Below, one piece after another: positions 7,956 through 27,436 of a DNA stretch of 38,482 bases. The notes beneath the pieces are model-generated. The model had not been told where the DNA came from. It made no database searches and worked only from the letters and a program-made list of their open reading frames with translations. The stretch's first letter is position 1. Every line of letters starts with the position of its first letter. The position numbers and the translations under genes were made by a program. Origin of the DNA: Oscillospiraceae bacterium (GTDB lineage Bacteria; Bacillota; Clostridia; Oscillospirales; CAG-272). The DNA lies in the NCBI GenBank assembly GCA_015064795.1, contig SVRO01000003.1, positions 1 to 38,482 of the forward strand, in the 5' to 3' direction.

Positions 7956-7996
7956 CAAAAAAGGTTGCAGAACAAAGTTCTGCAGCCTTTTTTGTT
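7954..7996. terminator. Bidirectional terminator between htrA and fucI
   Basis: A 20-bp arm (7954-7973) pairs with 7977-7996 around a 3-nt AAA loop with one mismatch. It is flanked by A-run and T-run on both strands. The hairpin overlaps the stop codons of both convergent genes, so it serves both. Confidence 0.92.
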
Positions 7997-9822
7997 TACT
8001 TATAAAGGGGACCGTAGGTCGCGCAAGCGCGGTAGTCCTGACCTTCCTTATCCATGCCAAATGCGTTCCATGCAGCAGGACGGAAAATATCGTCCTTGGG
8101 AACATTGTGCATACATACGGGGATGCGAAGCATCGAACACATGGTGATCAGGTCGGCGCCGATATGGCCGTAGGAAATGGCACCGTGGTTGGCTCCCCAA
8201 TTTTGCATTACGTCATAAGCCGTCTTGAAGGGCGATCCCTCCTTGCCGTCACAACGGGGCGCAAACCAAGTGCAAGGCCACGTGGGGTCGGTGCGTGCCA
8301 TCAGCTTATCGGTAACCTCGTCGGGAAGCTTCACAGTCCATCCCTCTGCAATCTGAAGAACCGGGCCAATACCCTTTACCAGATTGAGACGGATCATGGT
8401 AGCGGGCATTTCGGCACGGGTTACGAAATGGCTGGAGAAGCCGCCGCCACGGAAGTTATCAAAGCCTGCTTCGCACCACACGGTTGCGTCGGTCATCTTC
8501 TTAATATCTTCCTCGGTAACCTCCCACCATCTCTTCATAATGGGGTTACCGTTCTCATCGGTGCATTCGCCGCAAGCATCAAGACAAGCAGCACCCGAGT
8601 TAAGCAGGTGAATAATACCGTCGGATTCAGCAGCCTTACCTTCGAGCTTATATCCCGTAACTCTTTCGGTAGCATCGCCCGACCAATAGGTACGAACATC
8701 GGCAAAGATCTGTGCGCGATGCGTAAGCAGTCTCATAAAGAGCATACCGAGACCGTTGAGCACGTCGTTTTCGGTAGCAAGCGTATAGGGCTCACGCGCG
8801 CCCTCGTAGTCAAAGGTCGAGGAAAGAAGAGCCTCGGGATAGTCACAGTTGGGCCAATGGTCGGTCCACTGTCTCTGTCCCTGGAAGCCGCCTGCAATCG
8901 CATTGTGACCAACCTTTTCCTCCTCGGCAAAGGCAGGAAGATTGGGATTACCGCGCATAAGATCCTTGATGATGCAGTACATCTTGACGGTAAATTCCCA
9001 CTGCTTTTCCTTTTCCTCGGGCGTGAACTTGATACGGCGCGTTTCGCCAAGGAATTCCACTTCCTCGGGGTTGTTGTCGGGGCCTTCCTTGCAATGTTCC
9101 TTCGTCCATGCAAGTGCCTTCTGATACTCTTCCTCATTGTAGATTCCCTCTTCCATGCGGCGAAGGATCTCTACTTCGTCAACCGACTCGACGCGCATGC
9201 CAAGATACTTTTCGATGAAATCCTGATCGATAATGGAGCCCGCAATACCCATGCACTGCGAACCGATCTGGAGATAGGATTTACCACGCATGGTAGCAAC
9301 CGCCACGGCGGCGCGACCGAAACGGAGAAGCTTTTCCTTCACGTCCTCGGGGATCTCGGTCACCTGATCTCTGTCCTGCACCTCATGGCCGTAGATGCCA
9401 AATGCGGGAAGTCCCTTCTGCGCGTGTCCGGCAAGAACGGCGGCAAGATAAACGGCGCCGGGTCTCTCGGTTCCATTAAAGCCCCAAACACCCTTGATCG
9501 TATGCGGATCCATGTCCATCGTCTCGGAGCCGTAGCACCAACAAGGAGTTACCGAAAGTGTGATGGAAACGCCTTCCTTCTTAAACTTGTCGGCACAAGC
9601 AGCTGTTTCCGGAACACGGCCGATCGTGGTATCGGCCATAACCACCTTCACGGGCTCACCGTTGGAGTAGAACAGATTCTCCTCAAACAGTTTTTTGGCG
9701 GCTTTCGCCATAGCCCAAACCTGAGGTTCAAGGCTCTCTCGGAGCTGTCTCGGGCCGCGGCGGCCGTCAACGATGGGACGAATACCGATTACGGGATAAT
9801 CACCAATGATTTTGTTTGCCAT
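7996..9822 (-). CDS. fucI: L-fucose isomerase
   Basis: FucI interconverts L-fucose and L-fuculose (and D-arabinose/D-ribulose) with a divalent metal in the cytoplasm. The 608-aa protein follows the Escherichia family member throughout: [12 protein letters not shown] at the N-terminus, [33 protein letters not shown], and [13 protein letters not shown]. It also has [19 protein letters not shown], metal/catalytic Glu in ATENDVLNG and Asp in FADVRTYWS, the NWGANHG His and the [14 protein letters not shown] end. GGAG lies 8 nt before the ATG. No fuculokinase or aldolase is next to it, so this is an orphan fucI. The divergent AraC-type gene and the operator-like repeats between them suggest sugar-responsive control. 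Confidence 0.96.
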
Positions 9823-9856
9823 TCTTTTTTCTCCTTTTTAATATTTTGGTTTTTTA

Positions 9857-9885
9857 TTGACAAAATGAACAAACTGTGTTAAACT
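9857..9885 (+). promoter_or_regulatory. Promoter of the araC-type gene
   Basis: TTGACA (9857-9862) and TAAACT (9880-9885) are 17 bp apart on the plus strand, about 100 bp upstream of the AraC-type start. The -35 is perfect and the -10 matches 4 of 6. No equally good promoter was found for fucI on the other strand, which fits an activator-dependent fucI promoter. Confidence 0.6.
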
Positions 9886-9898
9886 GATTTTATATTTA

Positions 9899-9934
9899 TG
9901 TGCTTTCTTACATAATATCATCTTTTGAAGCACA
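9899..9934. repeat. Inverted repeat in the fucI/araC intergenic region
   Basis: TGTGCTT (9899-9905) and AAGCACA (9928-9934) are perfect 7-bp inverted arms separated by 22 bp. They lie between the plus promoter and the direct repeats. A possible second regulator site or a chance palindrome. Confidence 0.35.
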
Positions 9935-9939
9935 TTTAC

Positions 9940-9971
9940 ATGGATTTTTGTAACAATTTTATGGATTTTTG
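9940..9971. promoter_or_regulatory. Direct-repeat operator candidate for the AraC-type regulator
   Basis: ATGGATTTTTG occurs at 9940-9950 and again at 9961-9971. The start-to-start distance is exactly 21 bp, two helical turns, which is the half-site spacing known for AraC/XylS proteins on araI. The site is upstream of fucI on the minus strand and just before the regulator's own ATG. Assignment of the bound protein is inference. Confidence 0.6.
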
Positions 9972-9988
9972 AACAATGAGGCCATTTT

Positions 9989-10798
9989 ATGAAACTTTCA
10001 CAACAACCGTTGTTTCCAATCAATGCAAGCAAATCCAATATTTCCATTGCAGCAGGCGGCTTTGTTATTACCGACGAGAGATGGCATCGTGAACCCGTTT
10101 CGGATCCCTTTTCAAGACTGTATTACGTCACCGACGGAAGCGGTGTCATCTATTCGGATACCGAAAGCATGAAGCTCGAGCCGGGGTACGTTTATCTTGC
10201 CCCCTGCGGCTCAAAATTCGGACATTATGGTACCGATTCGGTGGAAAAGCTGTATTTTCATATTGGTATGATCCTTCCAAACGGCTACGATTTCTTGGAC
10301 GGCTTTGATCATTTTTCCCGTCTGCCTTGGCCGATCGAGCATACCCAAAAAATGACGAAATGGTATCTCAGTGACGATTTCACCGACCACTTGCTTTTAA
10401 AGGGCGAGATCGACCGTACGGTTATGGCGTTTGTGGAAGCCGAAAAATATACGCCAATACACCGCATGAAATATTCCGCCTCGGTCACGAACGCAATCAA
10501 TTTTATAAGAAAGAATCTTTCGGCTTCGCTCTCGGTGCAAGACGTTGCCGATCACACGCTCTGCTCGCGCGGAAGACTTTCCTCCGCGTTCAAAGAGGAG
10601 CTTGGACAATCTACCGCCCGTTACATCGAAAATCTTCTCATGATCCGTGCGCAGACCATGTTGCTTTACACCGACTACACCATCGGCGAGATCAGTACAC
10701 TTCTCGGATTTTGTGATCAGTTTTATTTCTCACGGCGGTTTAAACAGTACTTTTCTCTATCTCCCAAGGAATACAGAAAACGCAAGGAAGAACCATAA
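9989..10798 (+). CDS. AraC-family transcriptional regulator
   Basis: A 269-aa protein with a cupin-like N-terminal sensor (about 1-145; GSGVIYSDTESMKLEPGYVY, then LAPCGSKFG) and an AraC double-HTH at about 165-265. The first HTH is SLSVQDVADHTLCSRGRLSSAF; the second is TIGEISTLLGFCDQFYFSRRFK, ending in FSLSPKEYRKR. It is divergent from fucI and 21 bp ahead of an SGNH hydrolase, so it probably responds to fucose or a related sugar and controls both sides. The ribosome site is weak (GAGG at distance 8). The ligand is not identifiable from sequence. Confidence 0.93.
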   Translation: MKLSQQPLFPINASKSNISIAAGGFVITDERWHREPVSDPFSRLYYVTDGSGVIYSDTESMKLEPGYVYLAPCGSKFGHYGTDSVEKLYFHIGMILPNGYDFLDGFDHFSRLPWPIEHTQKMTKWYLSDDFTDHLLLKGEIDRTVMAFVEAEKYTPIHRMKYSASVTNAINFIRKNLSASLSVQDVADHTLCSRGRLSSAFKEELGQSTARYIENLLMIRAQTMLLYTDYTIGEISTLLGFCDQFYFSRRFKQYFSLSPKEYRKRKEEP

Positions 10799-10819: not shown

Positions 10820-11461
10820 ATGAAAACCATTCTTTTTCAAGGAGATTCCATAACCGATTGCGGCTGGGATCGCAACAATCCAAACTCGCTCGGACAAGGA
10901 TACGCACAGCTTGTGGCGGCCGAGCTTGGATTTGAAGCCCCCGGCGAATATACTTTTTATAACCGCGGCATTAGCGGCAACCGCATTGTCGATCTCTATG
11001 CGAGGATCAAAGCAGACATCATCAATCTGAAGCCTGATTATATGAGCATTTTGATTGGGGTCAACGACGTGTGGCATGAGATCATGAAGAACAATGGCGT
11101 AGACGCTGAAAAGTTTGAAAAAATCTACACCATGCTTTTGGAGGAGGTTTTGCAGGCACTTCCGAACTTGAAAATTTTTCTGATTGCCCCCTACGTTGTC
11201 AAAGGCAGCTCTACTGACAATACGCAGGACGCCCCAAACCGCTTTCAAATCTTTCGCGAGGAAGTGGATAAACGCATTGCGGCCGTGGAAAAACTCGGTG
11301 AAAAATTCCATCTTCCCGTTCTGCATTTACAAGAGAAATTTGATGAACACATTGCCAAAAACAACAACGCTTCATATTGGGTTCGTGACGGCGTGCATCC
11401 CGCGCTTTACGGCCACGAGCTGATCGCACGCGAATGGCTCCACATCTTTCGCACGCTATAA
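10820..11461 (+). CDS. SGNH/GDSL-type hydrolase
   Basis: A 213-aa cytoplasmic-looking esterase with no signal peptide. Block I is FQGDSITD with nucleophile Ser10, block II is NRGISGNRI (Gly), block III is LIGVNDVWHE (Asn), and block V is RDGVHP with Asp190 and His193. This subgroup is often a carbohydrate esterase or deacetylase. The location after the AraC-type gene and beside fucI supports a role in removing acyl groups from imported sugars, but the substrate is inference. AAAGGAG precedes the start. A convergent terminator separates it from ispE. Confidence 0.93.
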   Translation: MKTILFQGDSITDCGWDRNNPNSLGQGYAQLVAAELGFEAPGEYTFYNRGISGNRIVDLYARIKADIINLKPDYMSILIGVNDVWHEIMKNNGVDAEKFEKIYTMLLEEVLQALPNLKIFLIAPYVVKGSSTDNTQDAPNRFQIFREEVDKRIAAVEKLGEKFHLPVLHLQEKFDEHIAKNNNASYWVRDGVHPALYGHELIAREWLHIFRTL

Positions 11462-22096: not shown

Positions 22097-22843
22097 TTAT
22101 CGGAATGTTGTAACGCCGTCCGCAAGGAAAGCGTTCGTTCTCATTATGGTTACCCAAAACGTCTCTTCGTCGGTTTGGTCAATTTCACACTCCTTACAAA
22201 GCATATCCAAAAGGAGCGTGGGATTTAAATAATTGTCACTGCTTACGTTCAAAACGGCATTTACCTTGACCGTACCCGAAAGCTCATCGTAACAGGCGTC
22301 AAAGGAATGGATCTGCGGGATCATGTCAAATTCCTTTTCGCCCGATTTGGTGGTTTTGGTGGCCATCCATGAGGGCCTTGCCGCAAGCGCGTTCATCGTT
22401 TTCGCGACTTTCTCGGAAAGTCCTGCGTAAGAAATCTCCATTTCATAACCTGACCAAACGTAATCCGAAAATTTGGTTTCGGGAATATAAACATCGAGAA
22501 TACGCATCTCCTCTGTCACCTCACGGTTAAGAAGCGTTTTGATTTCCTCGCATGAGATCTCTCGCTCAATGCGGATGTCCAGCATCTCGCATTCGCTCTG
22601 TGTACCGATGGAAAGCGGCGTGGAAAAGACCAGCTTAATATGCGGGTTAAATCCTTTGGTATACCAAACGGGGATTCCCGCACGCGAAAGAATGCGATGC
22701 ATCGTTCGCTGAAGATCCAAATGGGAAATATACTGCAGATCTCCCACCTTGCGAAAACGAATACGCACGTTGATCGGCTCGTCAAGAAGTGGACGGTCTT
22801 TTTTGGTATAACAGGCTTTCAGCTCTTTGCTTTCGGACAACAC
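22097..22843 (-). CDS. Radical SAM-linked protein (DUF2344/TIGR03936)
   Basis: A 248-aa protein with the family's opening RIRFRKVGDLQYISHLDLQ, RILSRAGIPVWYTKGFNPHIKLVFSTPLSIG, and later SECEMLDIRIE. It is usually fused to, or beside, a TIGR03960-type radical SAM protein, as here. It starts with GTG and overlaps the 3' end of the radical SAM gene by 25 bp, with GGGAGGTGAGAGG upstream. The function is unknown; the constant pairing suggests one complex or one reaction, possibly on RNA or a ribosomal component. The C-terminal half has no motif I recognise. Confidence 0.92.
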   Translation of the reverse strand: MLSESKELKACYTKKDRPLLDEPINVRIRFRKVGDLQYISHLDLQRTMHRILSRAGIPVWYTKGFNPHIKLVFSTPLSIGTQSECEMLDIRIEREISCEEIKTLLNREVTEEMRILDVYIPETKFSDYVWSGYEMEISYAGLSEKVAKTMNALAARPSWMATKTTKSGEKEFDMIPQIHSFDACYDELSGTVKVNAVLNVSSDNYLNPTLLLDMLCKECEIDQTDEETFWVTIMRTNAFLADGVTTFR

Positions 22844-24687
22844 GACCTCTCACCTCCCAGCTTATTAGCACCACAACCGCTGCACTGCTCGCGGCAATTC
22901 GGTGTGGTTCGTTCTTCATATGCCTTTTCGCTTTCGCGCAAAAAGAAGCTCTTTTCTACCCCGCAATCAATGATATCCCAAGGAAGCACCTCGTCCTTAC
23001 CAAATGTGCGGTTGGCGTAAAAGGCAGGATCAATGCCTGCTTTTTCAAAAACAGACAGCCATTTGTCATAATCGAAATATTCGTCCCATGCGTCAAAAAC
23101 AAAACCTTCGTCGGCCGCGATCGCAAGTGCCTTGGCAAGCTTACGGTCGCCTCTGGCAAGGACCGCCTCCACGCGCGACGTGCCGGGATCGTGGAAGAGA
23201 TAGCGAATTTTACGGTCATTGATCCTATCTCCGATCAATTCCTGCTTCCTTACAAATTCTTCTGCGCTATCCTGCGCCTCCCACTGAAAAGGCGTGAAGG
23301 GCTTCGGAACGAAGCAGGCTACGCTGATGGTCACCTGCGGTGCGCGCGCCTTGTTGCGCTTTGGATTTTTATAAAACTCGTCAAGCACCTTCTTGGCCAG
23401 TGCTACGATTCCTTCAAGATCCTCGTCGGTTTCGGTAGGCAGACCCATCATGAAATACAGCTTGACCTGCGTTTTTCCCGACTCAAACGCCACGTTTACC
23501 GCACGCAGCAAATCCTCCTCAAAGACGTTTTTGTTGATCACGTCACGAAGCCGTTGCGTACCCGCCTCGGGCGCGAAGGTCAGCGACGCACTTCGCACGG
23601 ACGCCACCTTGTCCATCAGCTCCTTGGTAAAGCTATCCACACGAAGCGACGGCAAGGAAAGGCTGACCATATGTTCATCCGTCCAGGAAAGAAGTGTGTC
23701 GGTAAGCTCGGGGAGTCTGGAGTAGTCACTGATCGAAAGCGAGGAAAGCGAGATTTCGTCATAACCCGTAGACTCAAACAAGCATTTGGCCTGACGGTTT
23801 AAGACCTCGGGGCTTTTTTCTCTTACCGGGCGGTATACCATACCCGCCTGGCAGAATCGGCACCCGCGGATACAGCCTCGGTAAACCTCAAGCATAATGC
23901 GGTCGTGTACCGTTTCAATGTAAGGCATAACTACCTTTTCCGGGAAATACGACGCATCCAAATCTTTCATGATACGCTTGGTGATTTTGGCGGGAATGTC
24001 GTCATAAACGGGGCGGTATTCCTTCACTGTGCCGTCCTCGTTGTAGGATACATCATAAAAGGACGGAACGTAAAGTCCACCGATCGTACGCGCCGCCTCA
24101 TGAAGAAATTCGCGCTTGGAATAGTGTCCGCTTTCCTTCATTTTAATGTAGAGCTTGGTGAACTCCACGAGCATATCCTCGCCCTCTCCGATCGAGAAGC
24201 AGTCGAAGAAATCGGCCACGGGCTCGGCGTTATACGCACACGGGCCGCCACCGATAATGATCGGGAGCTCGTCATCTCGATCCTTGGCGTAAAGCGGAAT
24301 GTTGGCAAGCTTGAGCATAGCCAGCACATTGGTGTAGGACATTTCATACTGAAGTGTAAAACCGATGATGTCAAAATCGGTAAGCTTGTCCTTGCTCTCG
24401 TGTGCGGTCAGCGGAAGTCCGTGCTTCTGCATTTTTTCCATCATATCAGTCCAGGGCATGTAAGCACGCTCACACCAAATGTCCTCTTCCTTATTCAGCG
24501 CGCCGTACAAAATACGAACGCCGAGGTTGGACATTCCGATCTCATACGAGTCGGGAAAGCAAAAGGCCCATCTTGCCTTGATCTTGCTTTTATCCTTTAG
24601 GATCTGATTATATTCTCCGCCCGAATAGCGACCGGGCTTGGAGACTGATTTTAAAATTGTACTTCTGTTTTTCATGTTATTACTCAT
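22819..24687 (-). CDS. B12-binding-like radical SAM protein (TIGR03960 family)
   Basis: A 622-aa enzyme. The N-terminal part (about 35-190) resembles a cobalamin-binding Rossmann domain (FCFPDSYEIGMSNLG, FDIIGFTLQYEMSYTN, IIIGGGPCAYNAEP). The radical SAM core has C272xxxC276xxC279 in YRGCIRGCRFCQAG, then SLSSLSISDYS, the LSLPSLRVDS segment and FAPEAGTQRLRDVINK. The C-terminus has a second cysteine cluster, Cys598, Cys602, Cys605, Cys616 and Cys617. I chose the ATG at 24687, which overlaps the preceding stop as ATGA; an in-frame ATG at 24675 is the alternative. No strong ribosome site is visible, so coupling is likely. The substrate is unknown. Confidence 0.92.
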   Translation of the reverse strand: MSNNMKNRSTILKSVSKPGRYSGGEYNQILKDKSKIKARWAFCFPDSYEIGMSNLGVRILYGALNKEEDIWCERAYMPWTDMMEKMQKHGLPLTAHESKDKLTDFDIIGFTLQYEMSYTNVLAMLKLANIPLYAKDRDDELPIIIGGGPCAYNAEPVADFFDCFSIGEGEDMLVEFTKLYIKMKESGHYSKREFLHEAARTIGGLYVPSFYDVSYNEDGTVKEYRPVYDDIPAKITKRIMKDLDASYFPEKVVMPYIETVHDRIMLEVYRGCIRGCRFCQAGMVYRPVREKSPEVLNRQAKCLFESTGYDEISLSSLSISDYSRLPELTDTLLSWTDEHMVSLSLPSLRVDSFTKELMDKVASVRSASLTFAPEAGTQRLRDVINKNVFEEDLLRAVNVAFESGKTQVKLYFMMGLPTETDEDLEGIVALAKKVLDEFYKNPKRNKARAPQVTISVACFVPKPFTPFQWEAQDSAEEFVRKQELIGDRINDRKIRYLFHDPGTSRVEAVLARGDRKLAKALAIAADEGFVFDAWDEYFDYDKWLSVFEKAGIDPAFYANRTFGKDEVLPWDIIDCGVEKSFFLRESEKAYEERTTPNCREQCSGCGANKLGGERSCCPKAKS

Positions 24688-27413
24688 TTCAGTTTGGATT
24701 TCGTGTATATCAGCGAAGGCACTAACCAAAGCACCTGATAGATCACAATATACAAGGAAGGAACATACGCATACAGTTTTCCCACCATAACGAACGCGGA
24801 TAAAATTACGCCCAGCAAGAGCGACAAAAGGCGGAAGCATCTCTGCTTGCTATAAATACGCTTGATGTTAAAGCATTGCTCCAGGATCTTGAAGATCATA
24901 TGCGAATTCTTCGAGGTGACGATTCCGCTATCCGAATGCTTTCCGATGGGAATAAGCTCGTTAGGTGTAGGACGTATGACCTTGATGGACACATTCTTAT
25001 CGTTTCGAAGTGCTGCAATCATTTTCTCGTTCACGTTGGGATCCAGGGTTCGAATACCAACGCGAACACCGTTTCTCAACATCTCTGCGGCAAATTTTTC
25101 AAAACGCTGGGTAACCGTATACTGCACGTAAAGCTTCGCACAAAGCTCACCACCAATTGCCAAATACAGAATACAGATCTGTCCGCTTTCGATTTTTTTC
25201 TCGTCGTCAGTGTTACGCTTTGGGAAATATCCATGACTTCGCATAAAAGCAAGATTGCCGATGTAAACCGTTTGATCCTCAACAGTTGCTTTCACGCCAC
25301 CAACCGAAATATCGGTGATGCGTACGTTTTCTTTTTTCTCAATCTCCTTGGCCGAATTATCAAAAACGTTGCAAAGCGGTGCGCCGATAACGGTAAAGAC
25401 CGAAAGTGCATAAGAAAGCAACGAATAAAAGTCCATATCGTTATAAGAACGAACGCCAACCACGCGCGCACCGTGTTTTCCAAACATTTCCGAGTCCTCA
25501 AGGTAGATCGTATCGGTGTCGTTGTACTCCTCAGATACGGCGTCGCCGATCACCGCACTGTCAAGCTTGGAAAGTCCCTTCGTCAAGTGGAAGAAAGGAT
25601 ATATGTTGGCAATCAGAAATTGCATCGGCACGCAAATAAACATGGAAAAGGCAAACGACGCAAAGAAGGTGGAAATATCGTCGGTCAAAAACAAGGAAAA
25701 CAAGGAAACCACAAGAGCACCGAGAGTCGAAAAAGCAAGCTCATGGAAATATTCCGAAAGCTGAAGGGATCGGCGACCTGAGCGCGTGAAGAAGTTGCCC
25801 ACGAAAGTAACCTTCTCCACGAAGAATTCCTGCCCAAACGAAAAAACGTTGGATTCGTTTTGTGCCTTTTCTTCCAATCGTTCAAGTGAAAGCTTTGGTT
25901 TGCGATCCGAAACGACATCAAAGGCCAACCTTTCGCGCGTAAGACGCATACCATCGTCCGCAATACCAAACAAGAGGAAGATCGCCATTGCAAAATTGTA
26001 AACAGACATTCCGCTCTCTCGGAAAAAGAGCAAAACAATAAGATTATACGTAAAATTCAGCACAGAAAGACAAGCAATTGGTCCAAAAGGATCCCCCTGT
26101 AATACCATACACGAACGAAGTCCAATTCCTATCCTTTTGCGCGAAATAGCAATGAGCAATGCAGATAAGAGCAGTGCCGTAAAGTAATAAACCGACGGCT
26201 GATTCAGCCAATTTGAAAGATATGGCAGTCTTATGGCCGTCATGGGTAGATTTTCAAGGAACAGGATCAAAATACTCAAAAAAAATGTAGCGATCAAACG
26301 GTCACGAATCCTTCGGTTCTCGGAGGCATATCGCTTTTTTATAGAATCGATCTGTTTTGCATTGCGAAACTCCTCGCCGTCGTATCCGTACGTACGCTCA
26401 CCGGTGAATTCCTCAAAGAATGGGTCGTAAAATCCGTTTCTGGCAGAGCGAACGCGTGCATACCCCACCGAGCTTTCAAGCGCTTCCTTGCTACCGAGGG
26501 CTAACGCGAGATTGATATCAATATCATCAAAGTCCGGTGCGTCGATCGGCTCTTCTTCACGCAGTTTGTTTTCGGTTTTCGTTTTGCCCAAGCCAAAAAA
26601 ACGATTTGCCTCGTCATCCTCTAAATACAGGTCTTTATATTCGTCAAGAGGCTCGTAGCAAATTTTTTCCTCGCGTGCATCCAAAAGAATCAGCATGTCC
26701 TCTGCTTTCGTTTTCTCCTGTGAAAAAGAAACGCTCTCGTCCTTTGGTACATTCGCTTCGCAAGAAACAGCATTATCCAAAAGAATGTCCGCGTTGTCGG
26801 CAAGAGATTCCTTGTCCAATAGCCCAATGTCTTCTAACAACAGTGGCTCGCATTCGTCCGCAGCAAGATTTTCTTCGGGCTCAATTGCTTCTGACAGCTT
26901 GTCTACAGGGTCTTGGACAACCGGCTCGTTATCCGCATCACTTAGCATTTCCGAATTGTCGGTATCCACTTCCGAATGAAGCTTCTCCACCTTTTTTGGT
27001 AAGTTCCAAATCTCATCTGCGGAAACCGAATCGGAAACAAGGCTTTCCACGCGCTCGCGAAGCTTTTCTTCAAGCTCGGGATCTTCAACCTCCGCTTCGG
27101 GCTCATCTACAGCCAAAGCCTCCTCGACATCAAGAAAAATAACCGTTTCATCTTCCGCGACAACGGGCGTTCCCGCGGTATCCTCACCCGTTTCTACGGC
27201 AAACTCATACCCTTCGATGTTGTATTCCGAAGGTTCACAAGACTCGGCTTCCTTTTTGGGGGCACCGATATTTTTTTTCAAAAGATCAAGAAGCTCCTCG
27301 GGTGTTTCACCGCTCGGCTTCACCGAATCCACACCGGGAGCAGACTTCTTTTCCACCTTTTGCTGAAGGCGTGCAAGAAGCTCGGATATTTCGTTATTCG
27401 GCTTATTTTCCAT
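24684..27413 (-). CDS. Degenerate P-type-ATPase-like membrane protein with long acidic N-terminus
   Basis: A 909-aa protein. Residues 1-350 are acidic, repetitive in Glu/Asp/Leu and probably disordered. Hydrophobic segments lie near 374-390, 408-424, 444-464, 471-487, 563-579, 582-605, 861-880 and 883-902, an arrangement like heavy-metal P-type ATPases. The stretch after TM6 (TDTIYLEDSEMFG, 633-645) aligns with VDTVVFDKTGTLT, but the catalytic Asp is Glu639 and KTGT is gone. The N-domain HP motif is AP (678-679), while GVKATVEDQTVYIGN still looks P-type. TGDN reads TLDP (789-792), GDGxND is absent, and no TGES is seen. It is likely catalytically dead. The ATG at 27413 follows GGAG; a TTG at 27428 is rejected. 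Confidence 0.75.
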   Translation of the reverse strand: MENKPNNEISELLARLQQKVEKKSAPGVDSVKPSGETPEELLDLLKKNIGAPKKEAESCEPSEYNIEGYEFAVETGEDTAGTPVVAEDETVIFLDVEEALAVDEPEAEVEDPELEEKLRERVESLVSDSVSADEIWNLPKKVEKLHSEVDTDNSEMLSDADNEPVVQDPVDKLSEAIEPEENLAADECEPLLLEDIGLLDKESLADNADILLDNAVSCEANVPKDESVSFSQEKTKAEDMLILLDAREEKICYEPLDEYKDLYLEDDEANRFFGLGKTKTENKLREEEPIDAPDFDDIDINLALALGSKEALESSVGYARVRSARNGFYDPFFEEFTGERTYGYDGEEFRNAKQIDSIKKRYASENRRIRDRLIATFFLSILILFLENLPMTAIRLPYLSNWLNQPSVYYFTALLLSALLIAISRKRIGIGLRSCMVLQGDPFGPIACLSVLNFTYNLIVLLFFRESGMSVYNFAMAIFLLFGIADDGMRLTRERLAFDVVSDRKPKLSLERLEEKAQNESNVFSFGQEFFVEKVTFVGNFFTRSGRRSLQLSEYFHELAFSTLGALVVSLFSLFLTDDISTFFASFAFSMFICVPMQFLIANIYPFFHLTKGLSKLDSAVIGDAVSEEYNDTDTIYLEDSEMFGKHGARVVGVRSYNDMDFYSLLSYALSVFTVIGAPLCNVFDNSAKEIEKKENVRITDISVGGVKATVEDQTVYIGNLAFMRSHGYFPKRNTDDEKKIESGQICILYLAIGGELCAKLYVQYTVTQRFEKFAAEMLRNGVRVGIRTLDPNVNEKMIAALRNDKNVSIKVIRPTPNELIPIGKHSDSGIVTSKNSHMIFKILEQCFNIKRIYSKQRCFRLLSLLLGVILSAFVMVGKLYAYVPSLYIVIYQVLWLVPSLIYTKSKLK

Positions 27414-27436
27414 AATCTTTCTCCGCAAAATTTCGT

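Follow-up and report, generated by a model that had tools for sequence, protein, structure and literature searches.

The question raised by this locus is how fucI, a sugar isomerase gene of an uncharacterised gut bacterium, is controlled, and whether a direct repeat in the 166 bp between fucI and a divergent AraC-family regulator gene (positions 9823–9988, 24% G+C) is the operator through which the regulator acts. The window, i.e., the whole stretch of DNA analysed, is 38,482 nucleotides long, and the genes around the intergenic region are:

7996–9822, minus strand: fucI, L-fucose/D-arabinose isomerase, 608 aa (TIGR01089, NF008220, PDB match 3a9r)
9989–10798, plus strand: AraC-family regulator, 269 aa, with a cupin-like N-terminal half and two C-terminal HTH motifs (PF12833/PF00165, AlphaFold2, Foldseek)
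10820–11461, plus strand: GDSL/SGNH acylhydrolase (PF13472), 21 bp 3' of the regulator gene

FucI scored 927 bits against the curated L-fucose isomerase model TIGR01089 (cut-off 850) and 988 bits against NF008220, and its three Fucose_iso domains each lie above cut-off. Since the protein passes the L-fucose isomerase models and its best PDB match and closest solved relative, 3a9r, is a D-arabinose isomerase, the substrate may be L-fucose and/or D-arabinose. The sole linked deoxyhexose kinase/aldolase pair found in the same genome (G000:C55, L146:3306-5528) consists of an FGGY kinase and a class II aldolase; these were rejected as dedicated fucose enzymes, their best scores being to rhamnulokinase and rhamnulose-1-phosphate aldolase, with the kinase below its curated cut-offs, and no operator of the fucI-site class lies near them. 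The acylhydrolase gene is possibly co-transcribed with the regulator gene, and its product may deacetylate the sugar substrate of the regulator. Elsewhere in the window, a 914-aa ORF without any Pfam match (24684–27428, minus strand) overlaps the end of a radical SAM gene (22819–24840).

The C-terminal double-HTH region of the regulator matches PF12833 (3.5e-19) and PF00165 (3.7e-19), which places the protein in the AraC/XylS family. No Pfam match was found in its N-terminal part. An AlphaFold2 model built from 20 homologues (pLDDT 86.8) is beta-rich at residues 17–95, has helices at 116–151 and ends in two HTH units, and Foldseek searches with this model recovered full-length AraC-family proteins (ToxT, Rns) as well as the sensor domains of AraC and BgaR. 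Both results indicate an N-terminal cupin-like sensor/dimerisation domain of the AraC subtype. The score against the AraC equivalog PRK10572 is 90 bits (cut-off 208), and judged by its sequence the regulator is AraC-like and not E. coli-type AraC itself.

The 11-mer ATGGATTTTTG occurs at 9940–9950 and again at 9961–9971, a step of exactly 21 bp, which confirms the periodic direct repeat that the first-pass annotation had described in this 166 bp divergent region. Longer versions, ACATTTACATGGATTTTTG (9932–9950) and ACAATTTTATGGATTTTTG (9953–9971), are identical at 16 of 19 positions with the same 21-bp step. The half-sites are:

9961–9971, minus strand: promoter-distal half-site, CAAAAATCCAT in fucI sense; the more strongly conserved of the two in the close loci L003–L009
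9940–9950, minus strand: promoter-proximal half-site, CAAAAATCCAT in fucI sense; its end abuts or overlaps the expected -35 position
9898–9908, plus strand: possible third half-site, ATGTGCTTTCT, two 21-bp steps (42 bp) away from the proximal one and over the fucI start site

Taken by itself, the direct repeat is modestly significant. Among 2000 dinucleotide shuffles of the 166-bp region an identical 11-mer arose once at spacing 21, six times at spacings of 19–23 and 112 times at any spacing. The pair, allowing up to three mismatches, occurs once in the window and in none of 100 shuffles. The same annotation had pointed to an inverted TGTGCTT/AAGCACA pair:

9898–9905 and 9928–9935, no strand assigned: inverted pair ATGTGCTT / AAGCACAT, considered a chance occurrence

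The pair is indeed present, but its significance did not hold up: an inverted 8-mer within 60 bp turned up in 488 of 2000 dinucleotide shuffles and none was seen in the alignment of relatives, so it was rejected as an operator.

The direct repeat is accepted as real because it is conserved. A genome-collection search provided 80 homologous regulators, 72 of which were held out from motif definition. The same 21-bp pair is found upstream of all seven regulators of L003–L009 (43–52% identity), and the alignment of these upstream sequences with that of the window spans the regulator promoter, the divergent -10 and both half-sites. The divergent neighbour in six of the seven is a GH29 alpha-L-fucosidase gene (PF01120), which ties the regulator to fucose although the neighbouring gene differs. 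One further locus with a regulator of 50% identity (L002) has no clear pair. In four loci of other Clostridia (L013, L015, L017 and L052) the regulator gene is divergent from that of FucI, and a 21-bp pair is present with an extended -10 at 22–23 nt. The downstream half-site ATGGAGATTT of distant loci can double as a Shine-Dalgarno sequence (GGAG).

Pairs of ATGGANNTTT were also tallied at each spacing from 11 to 45 bp in the 72 held-out homologues, a set picked by similarity to the window regulator, so that its rows are not independent. Spacing 21 occurred in 17 loci with strict thresholds (any other spacing in 4 at most) and in 25 with looser ones (any other in 7 at most), and 21 bp is the sole sharp peak. 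Phylogenetic footprinting, proposed as a check in the first-pass annotation, thus bears out both the pair and its 21-bp spacing upstream of orthologous regulators. That the repeat is an accident of A/T-rich DNA, as the 112 shuffles with a repeat at some spacing might suggest, is refuted by conservation, which in many loci extends to the sequence, the spacing and the distance from the promoter, and has next to no probability.

The position of the pair relative to the two promoters bears on what it does. The promoter elements are:

9912–9920, minus strand: extended -10 of fucI, TGATATTAT (TATTAT with TG before it), agreeing with TGNTATAAT at 7 of 8 positions and separated from the proximal half-site by 22 nt
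9935–9940, minus strand: TGTAAA at the -35 position of fucI, a 3/6 match to TTGACA with a 17-bp spacer
9857–9885, plus strand: regulator promoter of near-consensus sequence, TTGACA-17-TAAACT, its -10 preceded by TG; same arrangement in L003–L009

The clear promoter on the regulator side had been recognised earlier; the accompanying statement that only this side has one needs revision, as a promoter is recognisable for fucI too, made up of an extended -10 and a poor -35. Such a -35 would be expected of an activator-dependent promoter. The gap between the half-site and the extended -10 is 22 nt (21 in two cases) at all 13 sites of the same class, made up of the eight close loci and five remote sites. 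Thirty held-out sites with a 21-bp pair gave a similar picture: extended -10 matches of at least 6/8 numbered 21 for a gap of 22 nt and 5 for one of 21 nt (the next highest gap, 17 nt, had 7), and at 7/8 or better the numbers were 11 at gap 22, 4 at gap 21 and no more than 1 at any other gap. A gap of 21–22 nt is found at about 25 of the 30. Two features of a class II activator site are seen here: two direct half-sites at a 21-bp step, and a proximal half-site at or overlapping the -35 at a fixed distance, as judged from the conserved 22-nt gap and an estimated start site. A fixed distance to a promoter without a -35 is what an activator touching RNA polymerase at that position would need, and it is the main evidence that the site serves activation of fucI rather than its repression.

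Repression of fucI by the unliganded regulator, for instance through 9898–9908 as a possible third half-site, with activation secondary, has some points in its favour, since the sequence ATGTGYTTTYT is found at 42 bp in five of the eight close loci (the window, L003, L004, L005 and L007), L006 has a weaker match at 43 bp, and AraC itself represses by looping. As a match the third site is weak, it is absent in L008 and L009, and both main half-sites lie upstream of the -10, which is the position of an activator; repression as the primary role is accordingly unlikely. Tentatively, 9898–9908 could serve repression as a third half-site.

From the promoter sequences, transcription is estimated to start at about 9905 (minus strand) for fucI and about 9892 (plus strand) for the regulator gene. 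The operator would therefore lie about 47–80 nt into the regulator transcript, i.e., in its leader, a point missing from the first-pass annotation and corrected here. The regulator promoter faces the fucI promoter, a layout kept in all eight close loci, and the estimated transcribed regions of the regulator promoter and of the fucI/fucosidase promoter overlap. Since the operator falls roughly between +47 and +80 of that transcript and a near-consensus promoter faces it, the chief role of the pair might be autoregulation, with the regulator halting transcription of its own gene about 45 bp past the start and fucI expressed independently. This would leave unexplained both the constant 22 nt between the pair and the divergent extended -10 and the sites before remote fucosidase genes and operons, and is improbable. 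As the regulator promoter implies a 5' mRNA leader that contains the repeats, these could also work as an RNA element and not as DNA. The absence of any Rfam match and a leader fold no better than shuffles (z -0.55) make this very improbable, and the repeats also precede fucosidase genes, where they would be outside such an mRNA.

The motif was then followed across genomes. Across the genomes of eight relatives and that of the window itself, the pair with up to three mismatches occurs 27 times (window included), compared to once for the reversed pattern, and 13 of the 27 show the class-A geometry of half-sites, gap and extended -10. Sites of this class precede other fucose genes in the relatives: GH29 fucosidase genes in L124 and L133, and in L130 an operon for a GH20-like protein, fucosidase and FucI (genome G063). 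For the site in L133 and similar ones, the protein that recognises them may be a local AraC paralogue. The genome to which the window belongs, assembled to 78% completeness, yielded no site of the class other than that in the window, and no GH29 gene. In L121 and L123 a site with full promoter geometry precedes the gene for a large protein of about 1000 aa (L121:3063-5999 and L123:2936-6001), a candidate uncharacterised fucose-related protein; that of L121 has no Pfam or PDB match.

A pair directly beside the relatives' own fucI genes was looked for and is absent in most. Six loci (L092 and L095–L099) have fucI without an adjacent pair, and the G059 fucI has a similar upstream sequence with no pair in the upstream stretch examined; only the G063 fucI is part of an operon headed by the pair (L130). 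This distribution, which counts against the activator reading, suggests that the regulon shifts between fucosidases and fucI.

What was observed are the conserved repeats, their constant geometry and, in relatives, further copies in front of fucosidase genes and of a fucosidase-fucI operon; from this we infer binding by the regulator, the direction of its effect, the kind of inducer and negative autoregulation of the regulator gene. The direct repeat at 9940–9971 is predicted to serve the neighbouring AraC-family regulator as its operator and fucI as an activator site (probability about 0.88), and very probably acts as a sugar-sensing on-switch of that gene. The AraC-type 21-bp site for fucI activation suggested at first pass is thus supported by the conserved pair and by the fixed distance that separates it from a divergent extended -10. 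The regulator dimer would be switched by an inducer connected with fucose breakdown, be it L-fucose, D-arabinose or a derivative, and would occupy the two half-sites, which at a step of 21 bp (two turns) lie on the same face of the DNA. With the end of the proximal half-site at about -35 of fucI, the bound protein would stand in for the missing -35 contact and recruit RNA polymerase to the extended -10 TGATATTAT, by class II activation as at araI1-I2. Since the strong regulator promoter faces that of fucI and its transcript reads through the operator, repression of the regulator gene, either by bound regulator or by polymerase coming from fucI, is probable. More tentatively, the face-to-face layout of the eight close loci may form a two-way switch, in which activation of fucI blocks transcription of the regulator gene through the operator in its leader and the third half-site holds the fucI promoter off in the uninduced state; this is possible, although on balance doubtful.

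AraC binds direct half-sites 21 bp apart, and at araBAD the I1-I2 sites share with the present pair both this period and the position relative to the promoter. The E. coli araI1-I2/pBAD system further resembles the fucI locus in that the proximal half-site lies at a poor -35, the regulator gene is divergent with its promoter in the same intergenic region, and the regulator is a cupin plus double-HTH protein. It differs in half-site sequence; at fucI there is an extended -10, no CRP site or araO2-like distant site was identified, and the operator lies inside the predicted leader of the regulator.

For AraC-family RhaR regulons of Bacillales, Bacteroides and Enterococcus, direct repeats with 21-bp periodicity were predicted by comparative genomics (PMC3870299), likewise for deoxyhexose catabolism; those regulons comprise rhamnose genes, their motif sequences are unrelated and their regulators are not orthologous. 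AraC-family sugar activators of Caldicellulosiruptor bescii have long-spacer tandem repeats upstream of mapped promoters, which were read as activator sites for other sugars (PMC8579813). That 21-bp direct repeats are predicted before the promoters of other Firmicute AraC sugar activators (PMC3870299, PMC8579813) favours an activator reading at fucI. The C. bescii fucI-alfA operon is under FucR, for which repression from tandem 5' UTR sites is predicted (PMC8579813). The clostridial fucI of C. phytofermentans is strongly induced by fucose, and its fucose microcompartment locus, unlike the locus described here, has a DeoR-type regulator, with no AraC-type fucose regulator described (PMC3557285). 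A literature search, with subscription papers outside its scope, turned up no account of an AraC-type fucose regulator that uses the present motif.

The operator is another instance of a well-known AraC-type kind, and for the wider field its design is ordinary. What it provides is a probable function for a large unnamed group of AraC regulators of gut Clostridia, known largely from MAGs, and a testable motif for them, AAAAATCCAT-N11-AAAAATCCAT-N22-TANNNT. The link of this group to fucosidase and fucose isomerase genes points to the use of fucose from host and plant glycans.

Most of the remaining 14 occurrences of the pair look like a second class, with similar half-sites in an orientation that is usually opposite to the likely promoter. 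These 21-bp ATGGATTTTT-like repeats are found in the window's own genome (L120, G000:C77:712-742) and in relatives (L127–L132, L135 and L136), with more than two in a row in L129. The own-genome copy had been considered as a further site of the fucI class and was assigned instead to a PocR-type regulator. Repeats of this second class adjoin PocR-domain AraC regulators in L120 and L129, and elsewhere lie beside transporter, GH20-like and other genes.
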